From positions 1-53,813 of the IMG/VR virus record IMGVR_UViG_3300032309_000894: a DNA stretch of 53,813 nucleotides, one strand, 5' to 3'. Source of the stretch: a virus. Each line of letters starts with the position of its first letter. Position 1 is the first letter of the stretch. The position numbers and the translations under genes were made by a program. Shown here one piece after another: positions 1 through 53,813 of this stretch. The notes beneath the pieces are model-generated. The model made no database searches. It was not told the origin of the DNA and worked only from the letters and a program-made list of their open reading frames with translations.

Positions 1-103
1 AGGGACAGCTCAACCTTATCTTAATCAGTCTGCAATTCAAAATATTGCAGGCGCAGCTCAACCGTATTTTCAGCGTTCTGCGTCTCAAGATATTTTAGGG
101 ACA
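1..103. repeat. Terminal direct repeat, left copy
   Basis: Bases 1-103 are identical to 53711-53813. The repeat lies inside a protein-coding tandem array and holds two 48-nt units plus 7 nt. Both copies have the same reading frame, so joining them leaves the gene open. It most likely marks a circular or circularly permuted assembly. A repeat-induced false join is the alternative. Confidence 0.95.
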
Positions 104-817
104 GCTCAACCTTATCTTAATCAAGCCGCGTCTCAAAATATTTTTGGAGCGGCTCAGCCATATCTTCAAGGATCAGCATCTCAAGACATTGTAGGTGCCG
201 GTCAACCCTATCTTAATCGAGCCGCATCTCAAGATATTGCAGGGGCAGCTCAACCGTATTTTCAACGTTCGGCGTCTCAAGATATTACAGGAGCCGCGCA
301 GCCTTATCTTAACCAAGCCGCGTCTCAAAATATTTTTGGAGCGGCTCAGCCATATCTTCAAAGTTCTGCGTCTCAAGATATTGTAGGGGCAGGTCAACCT
401 TATCTTAATCGAGCCGCATCTCAAGATATTGCAGGCGCTGCTAAATCTTATTTTGACCAAGCTGCGTCAAAAAGCGGCGTCGGTGCAGCTCAAAAATATT
501 TTGATAAGGCATTTAATCTTGACAGTGTAAAAGCCGCTGATCCTTACCTTCAACGCGCATCGAATTTGGATGTCATAGGATCAGCGCAACCCTATCTTAA
601 TCGCGCGGGGTCTTTGGACGTCATAGGGTCAGCACAGCCCTATCTTAATCGTGCCGGGTCTTTGGACGCTATAGGGTCAGCCCAACCATATCTTAATCGT
701 GCGGGGGCTTTGGATGTTATAGGGTCGGCTCAACCCTACCTCAATCGCGCAGGGTCTTTGGATGTTATGGGTGCGGCTCAGCCTTTGCTGGGTAAGGCCG
801 AAACCACCACAGCGCAA
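2..817 (+). repeat. 48-nt coding tandem repeat, left portion
   Basis: Seventeen in-frame 48-nt units encode 16-residue repeats of consensus G(A/S)AQPYLN(Q/R)A(A/G)S(Q/L)(N/D)I. The last units (about 566-769) are the most alike, with GSAQPYLNRAGSLDVI, and the final unit (770-817) is degenerate. Nine more units lie at 53280-53711 across the contig join, giving 26 in total as assembled. The Pro-Tyr in each unit suggests short helices separated by turns. Confidence 0.95.
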
Positions 818-3067
818 TCTCTTGCTGAACGCGCTTTGACAGCGGCAAATCCGTATTTGTCTGCTGCCGGTCAAACATCGGCATCCCAGGTCGGTCAATA
901 CATGTCGCCCTATCAGCAGGGCGTGCTGGACGTCATTGCAAAGCAAGGTGCTCGCAATTTATCCGAGAATCTGCTGCCGCAAGTCTCTGACGCCTTTATC
1001 AAAGCCGGACAATTTGGCAGTAACCGGATGGGCGAGTTTGGTTCTCGCGCTTTGCGAGATACGCAGGAAGCTGTCCTCAAAGAGCAATCCCAAGCGGCCC
1101 AGCAGGGTTACGGCCAGTCTCTCAACGCCGCCCAGGCCGATCTGGCGCGGCAGGCTCAACTGGCTGGCACCGTGGGCAGCATCAGCGGCGCAGACTTGTC
1201 GCGCGTTCTTCAGGGCGGTGCCCAGTACGGTAACCTTGGCCAGACTTCCGGTCAGCTTACCGCTCAACAGTTGCAAGCTCTTAGCAATCTGGGTCAGACG
1301 ACGGGTCAGCTTACTGCTCAGCAATTACAGGGCCTCACTAATGTCGGTCAGACAAGCGGTCAGATTACAGCTCAACAATTGCAGGCTCTTACTAATTTGG
1401 GTCAGACAACTGGTCAGCTTACAAGCCAGCAAATGCAAAATCTTAATAACATTGGTCAGACAACTGGTCAGCTTACCAGTCAGCAGATGCAAAATCTAAC
1501 TAATATTGGTCAGACTTACGGTCAACTTACCAACCAACAAATGCAAAATCTGATAAATCTCGGTACTTCAACAGGTCAGCTAACAAATCAAGAAGCACAA
1601 AATCTTATCAATATGGGTCAGTCTTCTGGTCAGTTAACTGCCCAGCAAGCTCAAACCCTTGCAAATATTGGTCAGACATCTAGCCAAATTACCGCACAGC
1701 AAGCGCAAAATCTTGCTAACTTGGGACAAACATCAGGTCAACTTACGGCTCAACAAGCGCAAAGTCTTGCTAACATTGGTCAAACATCAGGACAACTTAC
1801 CGGCCAGCAAGCCGGTGTTTTGGCAAATCTTGGGCAATCCTCCGGCCAGCTTACCGCGCAACAGGCCCAGAGCCTCGCCAATATTGGCCAAACATCTAGT
1901 CAAATCACCGCCCAACAAGCGCAAAATCTTGCCAATTTGGGGCAAACGTCCGGTCAACTTACGGCTCAGCAAGCTCAGAGTCTTGCTAACATTGGCCAGA
2001 CATCAGGCCAACTTACTGGTCAGCAGGCCGGTGTTTTAGCAAATTTGGGTCAATCGACCGGCCAGCTTACGGCTCAACAAGCACAAAATCTTGCTAATTT
2101 AGGACAAACGTCTGGACAGCTTGCTGGTCAGCAGGCCGGTGTTTTGGCGAATTTGGGTCAGTCTTCCGGTCAGCTAACTGCTCAGCAGGCTCAAAGCCTT
2201 GCTAATATTGGTCAGACATCCGGTCAGCTTACTGGTCAGCAAGCGCAAAATCTCATTAACATGGGTCAATCCACTGGCCAGCTTACCGCTCAACAAGCGC
2301 AGAGCCTTGCCAACATTGGTCAGACATCCGGGCAACTTACGGCGCAGCAGGCACAAAACCTTGCCAATGTTGGTCAGACATCTGGTCAGCTCACCGCTCA
2401 ACAAGCGCATAGCCTTACCAATATCGGCCAGACATCCGGGCAACTCACCGCTCAACAAGCGCAAAACCTCGCCAATGTTGGCCAAACCGCAGGACAGCTT
2501 ACGGGTCAGCAGGCCAATATTTTTGCAAATCTCGGTCAAACCACCGGCCAGCTAACCGGTCAGCAGATGCAATATCTGACTAATCTAGGTCAAACATCGG
2601 GCCAGCTTACTGCCCAGCAGATGCAAACTCTCGCCAACATCGGCCAGATGCAAACAAGTGCGGGTCAGGCTCAGCAACAGTATGGTTTGTCTGCGGTGCA
2701 GCAGGCCCAGGCGGCGCAAGCGCAGGACTATGTGCGTCAGATGTCGGCGTTGCAGAGTGTTGGCGATATAGCGCGCCAGGGTCAGGCGTTGCGCACGGCT
2801 GATGCGGCGGCCCTTGAGTCTGCTGGTTTGGCGCAACAAAACCTTTCCCAAAAGGTTTTTGATGCAAATCTTGCCAAATTTAACGCTGAGCAAAATTATC
2901 CTAAATCTCAGTTGGATTGGCTTAGCACCCAGGTGCGTGGTATTGCTCCCTATGTGTCGGCGGCGCAGACGCAGGCCGGAACCACCACGGGTGCCAGCTA
3001 TTCACCATCGCCGCTGTCGCAATTGGCCACGGGCATCTATACTGCCAAGGGCTTGGCTAGTATCTGA
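2..3067 (+). CDS. Giant dual-repeat virion/ejection protein (3' part)
   Basis: The frame is open from base 2 and continues the gene that starts at 52890. Joined, the protein is 1295 residues, of which this part is residues 275-1295. It contains the rest of a 16-residue repeat array (units like GAAQPYLNQAASQNIT), then a non-repetitive stretch (residues about 547-684, with SPYQQGVLDVI and QVSDAFIKAGQFGSNRMGEF). Next come 26 perfect-length 18-residue units (residues 685-1152, like NIGQTSGQLTAQQAQSLA) and a Gln/Ala-rich tail. No signal peptide or membrane helix is visible. It is followed 11 bases later by another likely internal virion protein, and preceded by a Gly-rich one, so a role in the tail tube or DNA ejection is inferred. 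I recognise no catalytic motif. The repeats are lower in GC than the neighbouring genes. Real unit numbers may differ because assemblies collapse such arrays. Confidence 0.85.
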   Translation, partial: GTAQPYLNQSAIQNIAGAAQPYFQRSASQDILGTAQPYLNQAASQNIFGAAQPYLQGSASQDIVGAGQPYLNRAASQDIAGAAQPYFQRSASQDITGAAQPYLNQAASQNIFGAAQPYLQSSASQDIVGAGQPYLNRAASQDIAGAAKSYFDQAASKSGVGAAQKYFDKAFNLDSVKAADPYLQRASNLDVIGSAQPYLNRAGSLDVIGSAQPYLNRAGSLDAIGSAQPYLNRAGALDVIGSAQPYLNRAGSLDVMGAAQPLLGKAETTTAQSLAERALTAANPYLSAAGQTSASQVGQYMSPYQQGVLDVIAKQGARNLSENLLPQVSDAFIKAGQFGSNRMGEFGSRALRDTQEAVLKEQSQAAQQGYGQSLNAAQADLARQAQLAGTVGSISGADLSRVLQGGAQYGNLGQTSGQLTAQQLQALSNLGQTTGQLTAQQLQGLTNVGQTSGQITAQQLQALTNLGQTTGQLTSQQMQNLNNIGQTTGQLTSQQMQNLTNIGQTYGQLTNQQMQNLINLGTSTGQLTNQEAQNLINMGQSSGQLTAQQAQTLANIGQTSSQITAQQAQNLANLGQTSGQLTAQQAQSLANIGQTSGQLTGQQAGVLANLGQSSGQLTAQQAQSLANIGQTSSQITAQQAQNLANLGQTSGQLTAQQAQSLANIGQTSGQLTGQQAGVLANLGQSTGQLTAQQAQNLANLGQTSGQLAGQQAGVLANLGQSSGQLTAQQAQSLANIGQTSGQLTGQQAQNLINMGQSTGQLTAQQAQSLANIGQTSGQLTAQQAQNLANVGQTSGQLTAQQAHSLTNIGQTSGQLTAQQAQNLANVGQTAGQLTGQQANIFANLGQTTGQLTGQQMQYLTNLGQTSGQLTAQQMQTLANIGQMQTSAGQAQQQYGLSAVQQAQAAQAQDYVRQMSALQSVGDIARQGQALRTADAAALESAGLAQQNLSQKVFDANLAKFNAEQNYPKSQLDWLSTQVRGIAPYVSAAQTQAGTTTGASYSPSPLSQLATGIYTAKGLASI
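1232..2635 (+). repeat. 54-nt coding tandem repeat, 26 units
   Basis: Twenty-six uninterrupted units of exactly 54 nt encode 18-residue repeats, N(L/I)GQ(T/S)(S/T)GQLTAQQAQ(N/S)LA. Units 9-12 (1664-1879) and 13-16 (1880-2095) are almost the same at protein level, a recent four-unit duplication of 216 nt. Early units (1-7) carry QQLQ or QQMQ and later ones QQAQ, so the array has grown in steps. Eighteen residues equal five turns of alpha helix. Confidence 0.97.
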
Positions 3068-18258: not shown

Positions 18259-18443
18259 TCTGCGTTTTCCTCTCGCAGGGCGTCGCTCAGGGCCTGTGCT
18301 GCGCTGAGCATCGCGTTTCTAGCGCGGTCATACGACCCGTTACTATATGCCATATCGTCGGAATATTGGACATCGATCATTGCATTGAGTGCTCGATCTA
18401 GCGCAGCACGCAGAGTGTCGATGTCAGGCTTTTCTACGGTCAC
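18255..18443 (-). CDS. Small hypothetical protein (GTG start), 62 aa
   Basis: A short gene using GTG at 18443, which overlaps the stop of the yhhQ-like gene by GTGA; its own stop overlaps the next ATG by ATGA. Both overlaps support translation. The protein starts VTVEKPDIDTLRAALDRAL and is Ala/Asp/Ser-rich and helical. Its role is unknown. Confidence 0.6.
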   Translation of the reverse strand: MTVEKPDIDTLRAALDRALNAMIDVQYSDDMAYSNGSYDRARNAMLSAAQALSDALREENAE

Positions 18444-18931
18444 TGGGCGGTCTCCTCGCGTTTGCGGTACATGGTCAACGCATATGCCCAGGCGGCACCG
18501 CCAAAAACCTTGGCAACAAACTGTAGAGCGATGATGTGCGGCATCAAAACCCCAAAAGCCAACGTCGGAAAAACAATTGAATCCACCAATGCGCCTGCGG
18601 CGTTTGATCCGTTTACTCGGGTCAACCATGCCCCTCGCATCCGAGCAAAAACGCCCCAGTCGACAATAGCAGCAACCGTAAATGCAACCGCAGACGCGAG
18701 AGCTATCGCTCCGGCGGTTGGGTTTAGGGCGTAAGTAAGAAAACCCGTGGCAGAAATGAGAGCGCCCATTTGCCATATTTTCAAACGGCTATGTAGCCAA
18801 TCTCGCAAAGCCAAATCTAATCCAATAAACAGAAAAGCATTTATGGGTGACACCCATGGCCCAAAAGCAGCAATCGAAAGATTAGCCGCAGTTATGGCAG
18901 TGGCATACACCGTCATGGCGATGTAAAGCAT
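18440..18931 (-). CDS. yhhQ: YhhQ/VUT-family preQ0 transporter
   Basis: A 163-residue membrane protein, about the size of the VUT (vitamin uptake transporter, YhhQ) family. Six hydrophobic segments can be seen, beginning AITAANLSIAAFGPWVSPINAFLFIGLDLALRDWLH, which has the family's short loop followed by Asp-x-x-x-Arg-Asp. A later segment is SNAAGALVDSIVFPTLAFG, where Asn-x-x-(A/S)-x-x-x-Asp-(S/T) is characteristic. YhhQ imports preQ0/preQ1. It lies two bases from the dpdA-like gene, so the pair would supply and insert a 7-deazaguanine base. The last residues, MYRKREETAQ, nearly repeat the end of the HTH protein at 19647. Confidence 0.8.
   Translation of the reverse strand: MLYIAMTVYATAITAANLSIAAFGPWVSPINAFLFIGLDLALRDWLHSRLKIWQMGALISATGFLTYALNPTAGAIALASAVAFTVAAIVDWGVFARMRGAWLTRVNGSNAAGALVDSIVFPTLAFGVLMPHIIALQFVAKVFGGAAWAYALTMYRKREETAQ
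18456..18473. repeat. 18-nt direct repeat, copy 1
   Basis: The 18 bases TCGCGTTTGCGGTACATG occur here, in the 3' end of the yhhQ-like gene, and again at 19672-19689 in the 3' end of an HTH gene. Both are in the same frame and encode Met-Tyr-Arg-Lys-Arg-Glu. The copies bracket dpdA and most of yhhQ. Confidence 0.9.
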
Positions 18932-18933
18932 GT

Positions 18934-19650
18934 TTATTCCTTAAAGTTATATGTTGATGGAGAGTTATGGGCTTCTATTCGACTCCGCATAACAAGCGCG
19001 CGAGCTTCTTTTGTGGGGGGCTGATAAGTACCCTTTGCCCATTTTTTATCTATACCCACATTTCTGCCAATGTTTGTGGAATCAGCACTGGCAAATGGAA
19101 TGCGAGTGAACACTTTGGGGTTCAACATTCGCAGTCCATGCAATTTGCATACAGGTCGGCCATCTGTATCACACAACACGGGCATAGCCTGTTCTATCCG
19201 ATCCCACCAAGCCGGTGTGCCTACAGTGGCATATTCACCAGAACTGCCAATGCAGATGCGCGGATACGATCTTGCTAACCGATTTAACCGATCAAGGCTT
19301 TCGTGCATGTGCCAGACAGGTGCCCCGAACCATCGAGGCAACGGCCACTCGTCCAGCAGTTCATCGTTTGCAGTTTCGTCGCCGTCTATGACATCGGGGA
19401 TCACCGCAAAATCGCAAGCCGGGAAGCGGCGGCAATGATCGGCCCAGGCATAAAACGGACGCCAATCAACTACTGGGCGACCGGCTTTCCATGCGGAAAA
19501 GGCCCCGTTGTCAATGGCAAATGATTGGCACACCTCCACCGCGACGTTTAATTGATCCGCGTGAGCAAAGCTCACAAAAGCGTGGCCAGCATTTATGGCG
19601 CTGACAGCCGCCGTTGCCGGTGTGATGGGTAACCCGTGGTAATGGATCAC
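18934..19650 (-). CDS. dpdA: DpdA-like 7-deazaguanine DNA transglycosylase
   Basis: A 238-residue protein with the short phage DpdA/TGT-like pattern. It has FAIDNGAFSAWKAG (the (I/L)D(S/N)GAF(S/T)AW box), CDFAVIPDVIDGDETAND (the D-V-I-x-x catalytic-loop region), GAPVWHMHE, CIGSSGEY, and the C-terminal KLHGLRMLN, then FASADSTN, matching the TGT-family H-G and D-S-T strands. It would swap guanine in DNA for a preQ0-type base, protecting the phage genome from restriction. The zinc domain of bacterial Tgt is absent, as expected for DpdA. Its neighbours fit: a preQ0 transporter directly downstream. No preQ0 synthesis genes were seen, so precursor must come from the host. Confidence 0.75.
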   Translation of the reverse strand: MIHYHGLPITPATAAVSAINAGHAFVSFAHADQLNVAVEVCQSFAIDNGAFSAWKAGRPVVDWRPFYAWADHCRRFPACDFAVIPDVIDGDETANDELLDEWPLPRWFGAPVWHMHESLDRLNRLARSYPRICIGSSGEYATVGTPAWWDRIEQAMPVLCDTDGRPVCKLHGLRMLNPKVFTRIPFASADSTNIGRNVGIDKKWAKGTYQPPTKEARALVMRSRIEAHNSPSTYNFKE

Positions 19651-19877
19651 GACTTGCTCACAGCGGCGTCTTCGCGTTTGCGGTACATGACTACTCTGAC
19701 GACGCCGAGAGCCTCCAGCATGGCTCTGCCGGGCTCACAGCGTGAATTTAAGACGTTGCTCACATAGGGGGACGATATGCCGTGGGCGTCGGCCCACTTT
19801 TTCTGGCCACCGGCTGCCGTGCATGCGTCTGTCAGCAGTCGACAGACGTCCACATGGTCGATGTAATATGTGGTCAT
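19647..19877 (-). CDS. Small Cro-like HTH protein
   Basis: A 76-residue protein with one HTH of the Cro/C1 type: CRLLTDACTAAGGQKKWADA, then HGISSPYVSNVLNSRCEPGRAMLEALGV, where the second helix begins at Pro-Tyr-Val-Ser. It is about the length of Cro repressors and probably binds operators as a dimer. It is translationally coupled (ATGA) to dpdA. Its last 15 residues include MYRKRE, shared in DNA as well as protein with the end of the yhhQ-like gene. It may control the early operon, though the sequence shows no binding data. Confidence 0.7.
   Translation of the reverse strand: MTTYYIDHVDVCRLLTDACTAAGGQKKWADAHGISSPYVSNVLNSRCEPGRAMLEALGVVRVVMYRKREDAAVSKS
19672..19689. repeat. 18-nt direct repeat, copy 2
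   Basis: Identical to 18456-18473. It lies in the 3' end of the Cro-like HTH gene, directly upstream of dpdA on the minus strand, and is in the same codon phase. Confidence 0.9.
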
Positions 19878-19894: not shown

Positions 19895-20662
19895 TTATGT
19901 GTTTGATTTTGAGGAAGTTTCGCATAACACACCGCAATCTGGCATTGATTTCAAACGCCGACCCTTTGTAGTCTCGGGTAGTTCGTCAAGAAAAATTCGC
20001 TTTCCTGCATGTCGAACAAGTTTGGCACCGAGTTCACGGGACAACTTGGCACGCGCTTCAAATGTTTCAGGGTCGGTCGATCTGACCAAATTCCAATAGG
20101 TTGGGCTTGTGGCTTTCACGCAACCCGAGCAGTTGGCGTTGGGAAAACCAACCTTGTATGACCACGGCAGATCAATGCCCGCTTCACGAATTGTGCGAAA
20201 ACAATCTTCTCGGGATATTGCCAGATCAATCAGCACGGGCAGTGTGTTGGGTGCGTCTGTAAACACAATTCTATCGTGGCGATGTTTTTCCTCTGACGTG
20301 AACCCAAACACATGCCATTCAGGTTGATATGTTGCCTCCCATTCAAAGCGGGCACCCTTCTTCAGCAGTCCCGTGCAAGGCGCGCCTTTTGGCCCGCTCA
20401 TGAATGAACGCTGCCGCCAAACTTTATCGGCAGAAGTGTGACCCAAGTCAGAATTTGTCACGTTCTCAATAGGGTGTCTCAGCCAGTCGGAAACATCTTT
20501 TAGAAATCTCCGGTTATCGGCGGGCTCCTCATCAACCATGTTGTTCAAAATTCTCACGTCACACGTCGAGCCGTAAAGCTCCAAAGTCTTTTTTGCGGCC
20601 ACCGCAGACGGTGCCCCGCATGAGAACCATACGGCGATCATATCGTTTTGCTTGGGTGTCAT
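19895..20662 (-). CDS. PP-loop ATPase, PAPS-reductase-like
   Basis: A 255-residue protein of the PAPS reductase/PP-loop superfamily. The PP-loop is IAVWFSCGAPSAVAAKK (residues about 8-24). Later come APCTGLLKKGARFEW, HVFGFTSEEKHRHD, then NANCSGCVKATSPTYWNLVR, RIFLDELP and MPDCGVLCE. The two Cys-x-x-Cys-type clusters suggest a Fe-S or zinc site. This family adenylates substrates; phage members are common but their substrate is unknown. Lying beside dpdA, it could act in nucleobase modification, for example like QueC or DndC-type PP-loop enzymes. This is inference from position only. Confidence 0.75.
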   Translation of the reverse strand: MTPKQNDMIAVWFSCGAPSAVAAKKTLELYGSTCDVRILNNMVDEEPADNRRFLKDVSDWLRHPIENVTNSDLGHTSADKVWRQRSFMSGPKGAPCTGLLKKGARFEWEATYQPEWHVFGFTSEEKHRHDRIVFTDAPNTLPVLIDLAISREDCFRTIREAGIDLPWSYKVGFPNANCSGCVKATSPTYWNLVRSTDPETFEARAKLSRELGAKLVRHAGKRIFLDELPETTKGRRLKSMPDCGVLCETSSKSNT

Positions 20663-50889: not shown

Positions 50890-52890
50890 ATGTCGATGCG
50901 CGAACAAATCATGCAGATCGCCCAAAGCGATCCGAAATTCGCCCAGGCGGTGGACGCCATGGAGCGCGCCGTCATCAATATGCCAATCATGCCAGACGAT
51001 CTGGATGAGGGTATTGAGACACTTGAAAAGATTATCAAAAATCCTAACAAGTACGCAGAAATCAGGTCAAAGGCCATTGCCGATGACATGGTCGATGAAG
51101 AGATGCTGCCCGAGCAGTACGACCAAGTTTATATCGTGTCACTGCTCATCGCCCTGTATGGCCTGCAAGATCGCATTTCCAAAAAGGGTTACGCCCGGGG
51201 TGGCTTGACCGTTGCTGCCCGGCAATTGGCCGCGCAGGGTCGAGGCGGCGATACTGAACTGGCACACGTCAACCCGCGCGAAGCGGCGATGCTTCGTCGT
51301 GCTGGTGGTTCGGGAACGATCAACCCAAACACCGGACTTCGTGAATACAAAAGCTGGATTAAGAAAATAAAGTGGGGCAAGGTTTTGGCGGCGGTTGCGC
51401 CCATCGCCCTTAGCTTTATCCCCGGCATTGGCACGGCTATCGGTGGATTTTTGAGCGCGGGGCTGCTTTCAGGCACGGCGGCTAGTGCTTTGGGCGGCGC
51501 GGCTATCGGTGCGGCAGCATCCGCAATCGGTGGCGGTAATCCGCTAGTCGGAGCAGTGACCGGTGGTATTGGTGGCGGTCTCGGTGATGTTTTGGGCGGT
51601 GGCATCAACAGTGCACTTGGCTTGGGTCTATCAGATAGCACTGCCAGTCTTCTTGGCGGTGCGGCGGCTGGTGCCGGTGCTTCCGCACTCCAAGGCCGCG
51701 ATCCGATTACCGGTGCCATTACAGGCGCTGTTGGTGCGGGCATTAGCGGGATGGGCGGTCTTGGGATTGAAAACCCTGACATAAGCCGGGTGGTGGCGGG
51801 AGCCACACGAGGTTTTGGTAATGCCCTTACTGCCGGGCAATCGCCTTCAGAGGCTTTAACGGCTGGCGGTCTTAGCGGTCTTGGTGGTCTTGCTAGTGGG
51901 TTCTTAGGCGCGAACCCGATGGGTTTGCCGACATTAACTTCAACCAGTTTCCTGCCTGGCACCAATGCAATTCCCACGCCTAATGCACTTGCAGCCGCTG
52001 ATGCGTCGGGCAGTGCTGATTCTACGGGTGGCGCGGGCGCGGATACCACCAGTAGTCCGTTAACTCAAATTGCTGATGCAGCAGCTACACAACCCGGCAC
52101 AACCCCGGCAACCGAGGTGGCCGCCGCGCCTGGAACAACACCAGCGTACAATATAGGGGATTATGGTGGAGGCCTCGGGCCAACTACACTTACGGGTGTC
52201 CCGGGCCTAAGCGGTTTGGCTGAAAATCCAAACAACATGGCGACCTATGGTGAAAGTGTTGGGCAAGCAACGCCTCCGGCTTATCGTGACGCCGACGGTT
52301 ACCCTCTTTCTGACACTCTTCCACCCAACCCTCCTGGTGAAGGTAGCACCCTGGGTCGTCTGGCTCCGCTTCTTGCGGGCGGCGCGGCTATTGCGGCATT
52401 GTCTGGCATGGGCTCGTCTAAAACCGCCCCTGCCAACGTGCAGCGAGCGGTTGGAAGTCTACCCGCCAATCAGCAGGCATATATTAACCGCCCGGGTATC
52501 ACATGGGATTGGGACAAACTCTCGGCAGATGCGGCGAGCAGCAACCTCACGCTCGATCAGTATATGGCGCGGAACTGGAACCGAGTTACCAGCGGTGAAT
52601 ATAACAGAGCCCCGGCAATGGCGCAGGGCGGCCTGAATGCTATGTCTCGCTTCGTGCGGGGCGGCGGCACCGGGCGCTCTGATGAAATTGATGCCAAACT
52701 CTCTGATGGCGAGTATGTTATCGACGCTGAAACCGTTGCCATGCTCGGTGATGGATCGAGCAAGGCTGGTGCTAAACGGTTGGATGAAATGCGAGCGTCA
52801 ATCCGCAAACACAAAGGCAAAACCCTAGCCCGAGGTAAATTCAGCCCGGATGCTAAATCGCCGCTCACCTATTTGAAGGGAATTGCCTGA
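50890..52890 (+). CDS. Gly-rich internal/ejection protein, 666 aa
   Basis: Residues 1-100 are helical, then GYARGGLTVAARQLAAQGRG. Next are residues about 115-135 (AHVNPREAAMLRRAGGSGTI), a motif common in short-tailed phage proteins. Residues 160-330 are strongly Gly/Ala-rich with zipper pattern (VAPIALSFIPGIGTAIGGFL, GAAIGAAASAIGGG). After a linker come GGGTGRSDEIDAKLSDGEYV and ETVAMLGDGSSKAGAKRL at the C-terminus, also widespread. It likely enters or crosses a membrane during DNA ejection. Its stop overlaps the next ATG. Confidence 0.72.
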   Translation: MSMREQIMQIAQSDPKFAQAVDAMERAVINMPIMPDDLDEGIETLEKIIKNPNKYAEIRSKAIADDMVDEEMLPEQYDQVYIVSLLIALYGLQDRISKKGYARGGLTVAARQLAAQGRGGDTELAHVNPREAAMLRRAGGSGTINPNTGLREYKSWIKKIKWGKVLAAVAPIALSFIPGIGTAIGGFLSAGLLSGTAASALGGAAIGAAASAIGGGNPLVGAVTGGIGGGLGDVLGGGINSALGLGLSDSTASLLGGAAAGAGASALQGRDPITGAITGAVGAGISGMGGLGIENPDISRVVAGATRGFGNALTAGQSPSEALTAGGLSGLGGLASGFLGANPMGLPTLTSTSFLPGTNAIPTPNALAAADASGSADSTGGAGADTTSSPLTQIADAAATQPGTTPATEVAAAPGTTPAYNIGDYGGGLGPTTLTGVPGLSGLAENPNNMATYGESVGQATPPAYRDADGYPLSDTLPPNPPGEGSTLGRLAPLLAGGAAIAALSGMGSSKTAPANVQRAVGSLPANQQAYINRPGITWDWDKLSADAASSNLTLDQYMARNWNRVTSGEYNRAPAMAQGGLNAMSRFVRGGGTGRSDEIDAKLSDGEYVIDAETVAMLGDGSSKAGAKRLDEMRASIRKHKGKTLARGKFSPDAKSPLTYLKGIA

Positions 52891-53813
52891 TGGCTAGTCT
52901 GTTTGAGGGCACGCCGCAAACCGCAACCTCTTACGTCACGACGACATCTGAACTGCCAAAATGGCAGCAGGATGCGCTGTATAATCAGGTTCAATGGGCT
53001 ACTAATACAGCTAACCGACCCTATACACCTTATACAGAACCAACGGTTGCATACTTTGCCCCGCAGCAGATGCAGGCGTACGACCTCGTAAACAAGAACG
53101 TCGGCGCGTGGCAGCCCGACATGAATTATGCCACTGCTGGCATGAAAGACTTTTCCGGTAGGGGAACGGCAGAACAACTGCAAGCCGGGCAGGCTCCTTA
53201 CCTTCGGCCAGATTTGGTCGGTTCAAACCTCGGTGCTGGGCAGTCATTATACAACCAAGCCGCCGGAATGGATATTTCAGGGTCTGCACAACCTTATTTA
53301 CAGCGGGCTGGGTCTCAAGATCTTTTGGGATCAGCCCAACCGTATATTGGTCAAGCCGCCTCTCAAAACCTCATGGGGGCCGCGCAACCTTATCTCAACC
53401 AAGCCGCATCGCAAAATATTACAGGGGCAGCGCAGCCTTATCTCAACCAAGCCGCATCGCAAAATATTACAGGAGCCGCGCAACCTTATCTTAATCAAGC
53501 TGCGTCTCAAAATATTACAGGGGCGGCGCAGCCTTATCTCAATCAAGCCGCGTCTCAAAATTTTGTAGGAGCGGCCCAGCCTTATTATCAACGTGCCGAA
53601 TCTCAAAATATTGCAGGTGCGGCTCAACCTTATCTTGATCGAGCCGCGTCGCAAGATATTACAGGTGCCGCTCAGCCTTATTTTCAACGATCTGCGTCTC
53701 AAGATATTTTAGGGACAGCTCAACCTTATCTTAATCAGTCTGCAATTCAAAATATTGCAGGCGCAGCTCAACCGTATTTTCAGCGTTCTGCGTCTCAAGA
53801 TATTTTAGGGACA
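52890..53813 (+). CDS. Giant dual-repeat virion protein (5' part)
   Basis: Start in the TGATG overlap. The conserved N-terminal head (residues 1-130) has SLFEGTPQTATSYVTTTSEL, LPKWQQDALYNQVQ, PYTPYTEPTVAYFAPQQMQA, a start I have seen in ejection-type proteins of short-tailed phages. From residue 131 come nine 16-residue repeats (GSAQPYLQRAGSQDLL, GAAQPYLNQAASQNIT) before the terminal repeat. The frame ends exactly at the contig end and continues at base 2 of the window. Confidence 0.88.
   Translation, partial: MASLFEGTPQTATSYVTTTSELPKWQQDALYNQVQWATNTANRPYTPYTEPTVAYFAPQQMQAYDLVNKNVGAWQPDMNYATAGMKDFSGRGTAEQLQAGQAPYLRPDLVGSNLGAGQSLYNQAAGMDISGSAQPYLQRAGSQDLLGSAQPYIGQAASQNLMGAAQPYLNQAASQNITGAAQPYLNQAASQNITGAAQPYLNQAASQNITGAAQPYLNQAASQNFVGAAQPYYQRAESQNIAGAAQPYLDRAASQDITGAAQPYFQRSASQDILGTAQPYLNQSAIQNIAGAAQPYFQRSASQDILGT
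53280..53711 (+). repeat. 48-nt coding tandem repeat, right portion
   Basis: Nine in-frame 48-nt units lead into the terminal repeat. Units 3-5 are identical at protein level (GAAQPYLNQAASQNIT), which points to recent duplication. Confidence 0.95.
53711..53813. repeat. Terminal direct repeat, right copy
   Basis: Identical to bases 1-103; see the left copy. It marks the place where the contig closes. Confidence 0.95.

Follow-up and report, generated by a model that had tools for sequence, protein, structure and literature searches.

We propose that two adjoining genes of a bacterial virus, dpdA and vut, probably act together as a DNA-modification cassette, in which the membrane protein VUT would import a 7-deazaguanine precursor for the transglycosylase DpdA, with protection against restriction as the likely gain. 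The stretch of DNA analysed, which we call the window, is the whole of IMG/VR record IMGVR_UViG_3300032309_000894 (53,813 nucleotides). Gene content, gene coupling, protein fold, active-site residues, the pairing of the two genes among relatives and the exchange of one partner for others carry this reading, and from them we infer the substrate, its transport, the DNA target and the protection. DpdA would replace chosen guanines in the DNA of the phage with a free 7-deazaguanine base, using the base-exchange reaction of the TGT enzymes, whilst VUT would raise the intracellular level of preQ0, preQ1 or a related precursor by importing it, because the phage makes no precursor itself; the modified sites would then resist host restriction enzymes. 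We further suggest that, in this DpdA clade, other partners can take the importer's place, and that their common theme would be a precursor supply or processing step matched to host and environment.

The idea of salvage is not in itself new. In 2019 it was suggested that phages with DpdA as their only such gene could draw on preQ0 from the host or on uptake, and YhhQ was noted in some of them (PMC6884629). The salvage interpretation offered in the preliminary description of the window is upheld in part: as to families, gene order, missing synthesis genes and a functional link of this DpdA clade to precursor supply. Its more specific wording, uptake of preQ0 into phage DNA to escape restriction, is best called putative, with preQ1, ADG or another 7-deazaguanine also possible as the substrate. 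The DpdA of phage 9g, expressed alone in E. coli, places dPreQ0 in plasmid DNA (PMC6884629). Set against the cassette reading, the DpdA-only phages that have been measured carry little or no modification: none in Orion, about 0.02% of G as dADG in 7-11 (PMC6884629, PMC8306585), and about 0.13% of G as dADG in MED16, with minimal effect on restriction enzymes (PMC8306585). These measurements are what chiefly speaks against a strong protective role, and they lend some weight to the idea, in our view unlikely but the one to be taken most seriously, that modification occurs at low density, or only with plentiful precursor, and serves something other than bulk escape from restriction (marking, packaging, evasion of a single enzyme, or no measurable benefit). 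The SEN1-type DpdA, which PMC8306585 places in the MED16 branch, shares 42% identity with that of the window. However, none of the measured phages is reported to have an importer, VUT is found at 0 of 31 SEN1-like loci, and VUT may be the very factor that lifts the level of modification. The window resembles MED16 (PMC8306585) and the ‘group 3’ phages of Hutinet et al. (PMC6884629) in having a DpdA without genes for preQ0 synthesis; it differs in that its importer is encoded right beside dpdA, a pairing kept across a large clade.

The record represents a single virus of bacteria, and since it has a direct terminal repeat of 103 bp, and a long tandem-repeat open reading frame that, by its coordinates, continues in frame across the join of the two ends, it is probably a complete genome; the exact position of the join is unsure, as the 103-bp repeat falls inside the tandem-repeat gene. 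That reading frame, with tandem repeats of about 16 amino acids (AQPYLNQAASQNI-like), spans positions 52890-53813 and 1-3067, and copies of the repeat may have been collapsed. The record holds packaging and head genes of a tailed phage, with the replication genes forming a leftward arm in which dpdA and vut are located. We found no tyrosine integrase gene in the record, and searching annotated phages at the nucleotide level with 15-25 kb of the window gave no relative. A preQ1 riboswitch upstream of the cassette was sought through Rfam, to which the window gave no match. Bacterial genomes that carry relatives belong mainly to Burkholderiales, Nitrosomonadales and Pseudomonas, which suggests a proteobacterial host.

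Table 1. Features of the dpdA-vut locus (positions in the window).
Feature	Position	Strand	Description
dpdA	18934..19650	-	238-aa DpdA-type transglycosylase, GTG start
vut	18440..18931	-	163-aa VUT/QPTR-family membrane protein, putative 7-deazaguanine precursor importer
AAGGA ribosome-binding site of vut	18938..18942	-	within dpdA 3' end; junction sequence
27-bp direct repeat, copy 1	18447..18473	-	3' end of vut
27-bp direct repeat, copy 2	19663..19689	-	3' end of HTH gene directly upstream of dpdA
YdaS-like HTH protein, 76 aa	19647..19877	-	PF15943 E=0.0015, below cut-off

As the preliminary description had it, and at the coordinates given there, a DpdA-like gene is followed by a YhhQ/VUT gene. 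Both lie on the minus strand (Table 1), with matches to phrog_887 and PF02592, respectively. Only 2 bp separate the stop codon of dpdA from the ATG of vut, the stop codon of the upstream HTH gene overlaps the start of dpdA (GTGA), and vut itself ends in GTGA, a possible start for the next gene; by these overlaps and this spacing, the pair is part of a tightly coupled run of genes. The HTH gene shares a transcription unit with dpdA, and we do not assign it to the conserved cassette. The two copies of the 27-bp repeat are identical at 24 of 27 positions (the best of 200 shuffles reached 19/27) and flank the cassette on both sides; both are present in a near-identical locus, L089, and absent from four more distant relatives. 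This bracketing suggests that dpdA and vut may have entered the window's lineage as one unit. Two genes upstream of dpdA lies a PP-loop, PAPS-reductase-like protein (phrog_424; 19895-20662, minus strand), which we rejected both as a hidden QueC, since neither QueC nor any other Pfam or NCBIfam family matched it, and as a member of the cassette, since it stands beside dpdA at only about 20 of 250 loci.

DpdA matches phrog_887 (‘queuine tRNA-ribosyltransferase’) over its full length with E=1.2e-70; it has no match in Pfam or NCBIfam, and a PDB search with the single sequence gave chance matches only. An AlphaFold2 model (pLDDT 92.9) has the TIM-barrel fold of the TGT type, aligning with TGT-family structures over 209-227 residues at Z 13.9-15.4 (VIA), and 49 of its 50 best structural matches are members of the TGT family, the outcome by which the identification had been proposed to be judged. 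Foldseek searches of the PDB with the models of DpdA and VUT gave no significant match (E>0.001). The active-site residues are D47, D86, H114, H171 and D190, of which D47, D86, H171 and D190 correspond to D72, D114, H196 and D215 of 9g DpdA. In an alignment of the window protein with 43 relatives, 9g-like DpdAs of about 20% identity included, S27, D47, G49-F51, D86, P111, H114, G135, H171, P185 and D190-S191 are invariant across all 44 sequences. His196 is conserved in DpdA and absent in DpdA2 (PMC6884629).

The window protein has neither the zinc site (CxCxxC..H) nor the C-terminal domain of tRNA-type TGTs, and at 238 aa is well short of their ~360-390; the CxCxxC motif is absent from 9g DpdA also. 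Taken together, the fold, the residues and the missing zinc motif and C-terminal part leave membership of the DpdA family well supported, and DNA would be the expected target. An action on tRNA, with the pair aiding translation through more queuosine-type modification of tRNAs, be they of the host or the phage, is suggested by the superfamily shared with tRNA-guanine transglycosylase and by the PHROGs name; against the short length, the two missing parts and the retained histidine of the DNA-acting 9g enzyme, we consider it quite improbable.

VUT scores 45.7 bits against PF02592 (Vut_1; gathering cut-off 27.2) and matches phrog_4899 with E=5e-37. E. coli YhhQ (QPTR, COG1738) has the same Pfam family and shares its motifs with the window protein, which differs in being a compact phage form of 163 aa that falls below the NCBI equivalog cut-offs: 28 bits (E=1.7e-6) for TIGR00697, ‘queuosine precursor transporter’, where 50.95 is required, and 22.6 bits for NF008406 (YhhQ), where 252 is required. 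These scores count against the importer role, and on their account we treat VUT as a sequence relative of QPTR rather than a proven functional equivalent. Its AlphaFold2 model (pLDDT 94.4) has six membrane helices, with weak likeness to ECF S components only in structural comparison (VIA), and the motifs IAxAS, D..VF, D[ST]..F and K are common to phage VUTs and the QPTR proteins of bacterial genomes. For QPTR-type transporters, sequence is a poor guide to substrate specificity (PMC11130926); VUT is probably an importer of preQ0, preQ1 or a related precursor.

Reciprocal counts show that the pairing is real and not due to chance. In 69 of the 80 closest DpdA relatives, all on viral contigs, vut follows dpdA immediately and on the same strand, and in the reverse direction dpdA adjoins VUT at 39 of 40 new loci found by searching with VUT; of 121 non-redundant close relatives, 65 have the two side by side. 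It is found at 1 of 80 SPN3UB-like loci, at none of the SEN1-like loci, at 3 of 5 PEAT2-like loci, where the order is reversed, and at 1 of 7 9g-like loci, where it lies 7.5 kb away and Que genes are present. Amongst isolates, Acinetobacter phage vB_AbaM_AB3P2 has the two genes adjacent on one strand in the order dpdA-vut, and Pectobacterium phage PEAT2 and Flyfo siphovirus Tbat1_6 likewise have them adjacent on one strand, but in the order vut-dpdA, opposite to that of the window, so that both orders occur among unrelated isolates; vut is unnamed in the annotation of AB3P2, as is dpdA in that of Tbat1_6. The 2019 survey reported ‘no correlation’ of phage YhhQ with any phage group (PMC6884629); in contrast, a correlation is present in the window's DpdA clade. 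That VUT carries an unrelated substrate and sits beside dpdA incidentally might be argued from its Pfam name (‘putative vitamin uptake transporter’) and from the sub-threshold equivalog scores, but the reciprocal linkage, the two gene orders in unrelated phages and the replacement of VUT by Que-type genes in relatives make this very unlikely.

This replacement bears on how the cassette might work more generally. The 121 non-redundant loci comprise 63 with VUT only, 23 with Que-type genes only, 2 with both, 20 with a small protein only and 13 with none of these. On the DpdA tree, the VUT state changes at least 17 times and the Que state at least 13 times. Mutual exclusion of VUT and Que-type genes has a Fisher p of 1e-7, a value that ignores kinship, whereas the distribution is clade-structured and too few pairs were available for a tree-aware pair test; we therefore regard the exclusivity as suggestive, and the repeated, independent association as the stronger point. 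Where VUT is missing, dpdA often has a QueD-like gene as its neighbour (PTPS, PF01242, E down to 4e-23), and in other cases QueE (as in L047; NCBIfam queE E=5e-34) or a member of the small protein family phrog_37496; Pfam, PHROGs and NCBIfam confirmed the Que-type identities. Within the window's own DpdA clade, L298 has dpdA-QueC-QueE-QueD and L323 has dpdA-QueC-vut; QueD and VUT are both present in L025.

Most of the standalone QueD-like partners keep the zinc histidines and the Asp-His pair and have lost the catalytic Cys of QueD, which is present in 9g, L298 and L263. Given this loss, the role of some of these partners may be to finish or carry the base, not simply to supply the precursor. 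We speculate, at what we would put at even chances, that the DpdA of this clade sits in a modular cassette in which a swappable partner (importer, Cys-less QueD-like protein, QueE, QueC or phrog_37496) tunes a different step in the supply or finishing of the 7-deazaguanine, such that the neighbour of dpdA predicts the source of the base. Both the small proteins and the QueD-like ones without the Cys may be new enzymes of the pathway, or carriers of the base.

That the phage would depend on precursor from outside its own genome is consistent with profile searches of the whole record, which found no QueC, QueD, FolE or QueE, in agreement with the preliminary description; all four profiles matched the positive control, the 9g-like phage record of L216. 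The same searches found none of the four in 16 other long VUT-bearing records. With dpdA and without these genes, the window falls under the definition of a DpdA-only (salvage) phage. QueC is nevertheless present in 13 of 13 searchable bacterial genomes bearing relatives, so that synthesis by the host may be as important as salvage. Moreover, vut stands beside dpdA in only 1 of 18 copies from bacterial genomes or isolates, while in the viral set from metagenomes the count is 64 of 103 (p=9e-6, kinship ignored). From hosts that have QueC, and copies in bacterial genomes that mostly do without vut, it follows that vut is not simply a remedy for hosts without synthesis; an equally good reading is that it would raise a limiting precursor pool during lytic growth. 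The bacterial-genome loci (L252-L278) have DpdA relatives mostly without vut, unlike the metagenome viral contigs; together with the queC of their hosts, this counts against the cassette reading.

The Enterobacteria phage 9g/CAjan type has a DpdA with the same catalytic residues, including His196, as the window; it differs in making its own precursor (folE, queD, queE, queC), genes that the window does not have, and the two DpdAs are about 20% identical. The top structural match of the window's DpdA model is a chain of the Cap10-CdnD complex, and the defences Type IV CBASS and qatABCD use QueC-family chemistry (PMC13279940); that the pair manipulates host deazaguanine pools to blunt defences using such bases, instead of modifying phage DNA, is nonetheless the least probable of the readings, as the match is tied with ordinary TGTs (Z 15.4 versus 15.0) and extra import of precursor would not obviously starve a defence.

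Returning to a modification cassette with its own importer, what is new here, as far as the literature searched shows and allowing for a later mention, is that dpdA-vut is conserved as a cassette, and that Que-type genes and an unknown family stand in for the importer in relatives. The source and the occurrence of the modification in DpdA phages without a precursor pathway have been in question since 2019, and an importer conserved next to dpdA, whose place is taken in other phages by genes of the synthesis type, offers a concrete answer that can be tested with isolated phages bearing the pair. phrog_37496 and the Cys-less QueD-like proteins are unstudied groups and candidates for missing steps of the pathway. 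We rejected phrog_37496 as a relative of QueD, its order of strands and helices looking T-fold-like by eye but its hhalign probability being 2.8%, and it has no match in Pfam or NCBIfam. The Cys-less QueD-like (PTPS) proteins stand beside dpdA in L060 (8720-9097), L073, L383, L048, L258, L313 and L282, and phrog_37496, a protein of 85 aa, is found beside dpdA, or between dpdA and vut, in L050 (4307-4546), L255, L056 and about 77 other loci.
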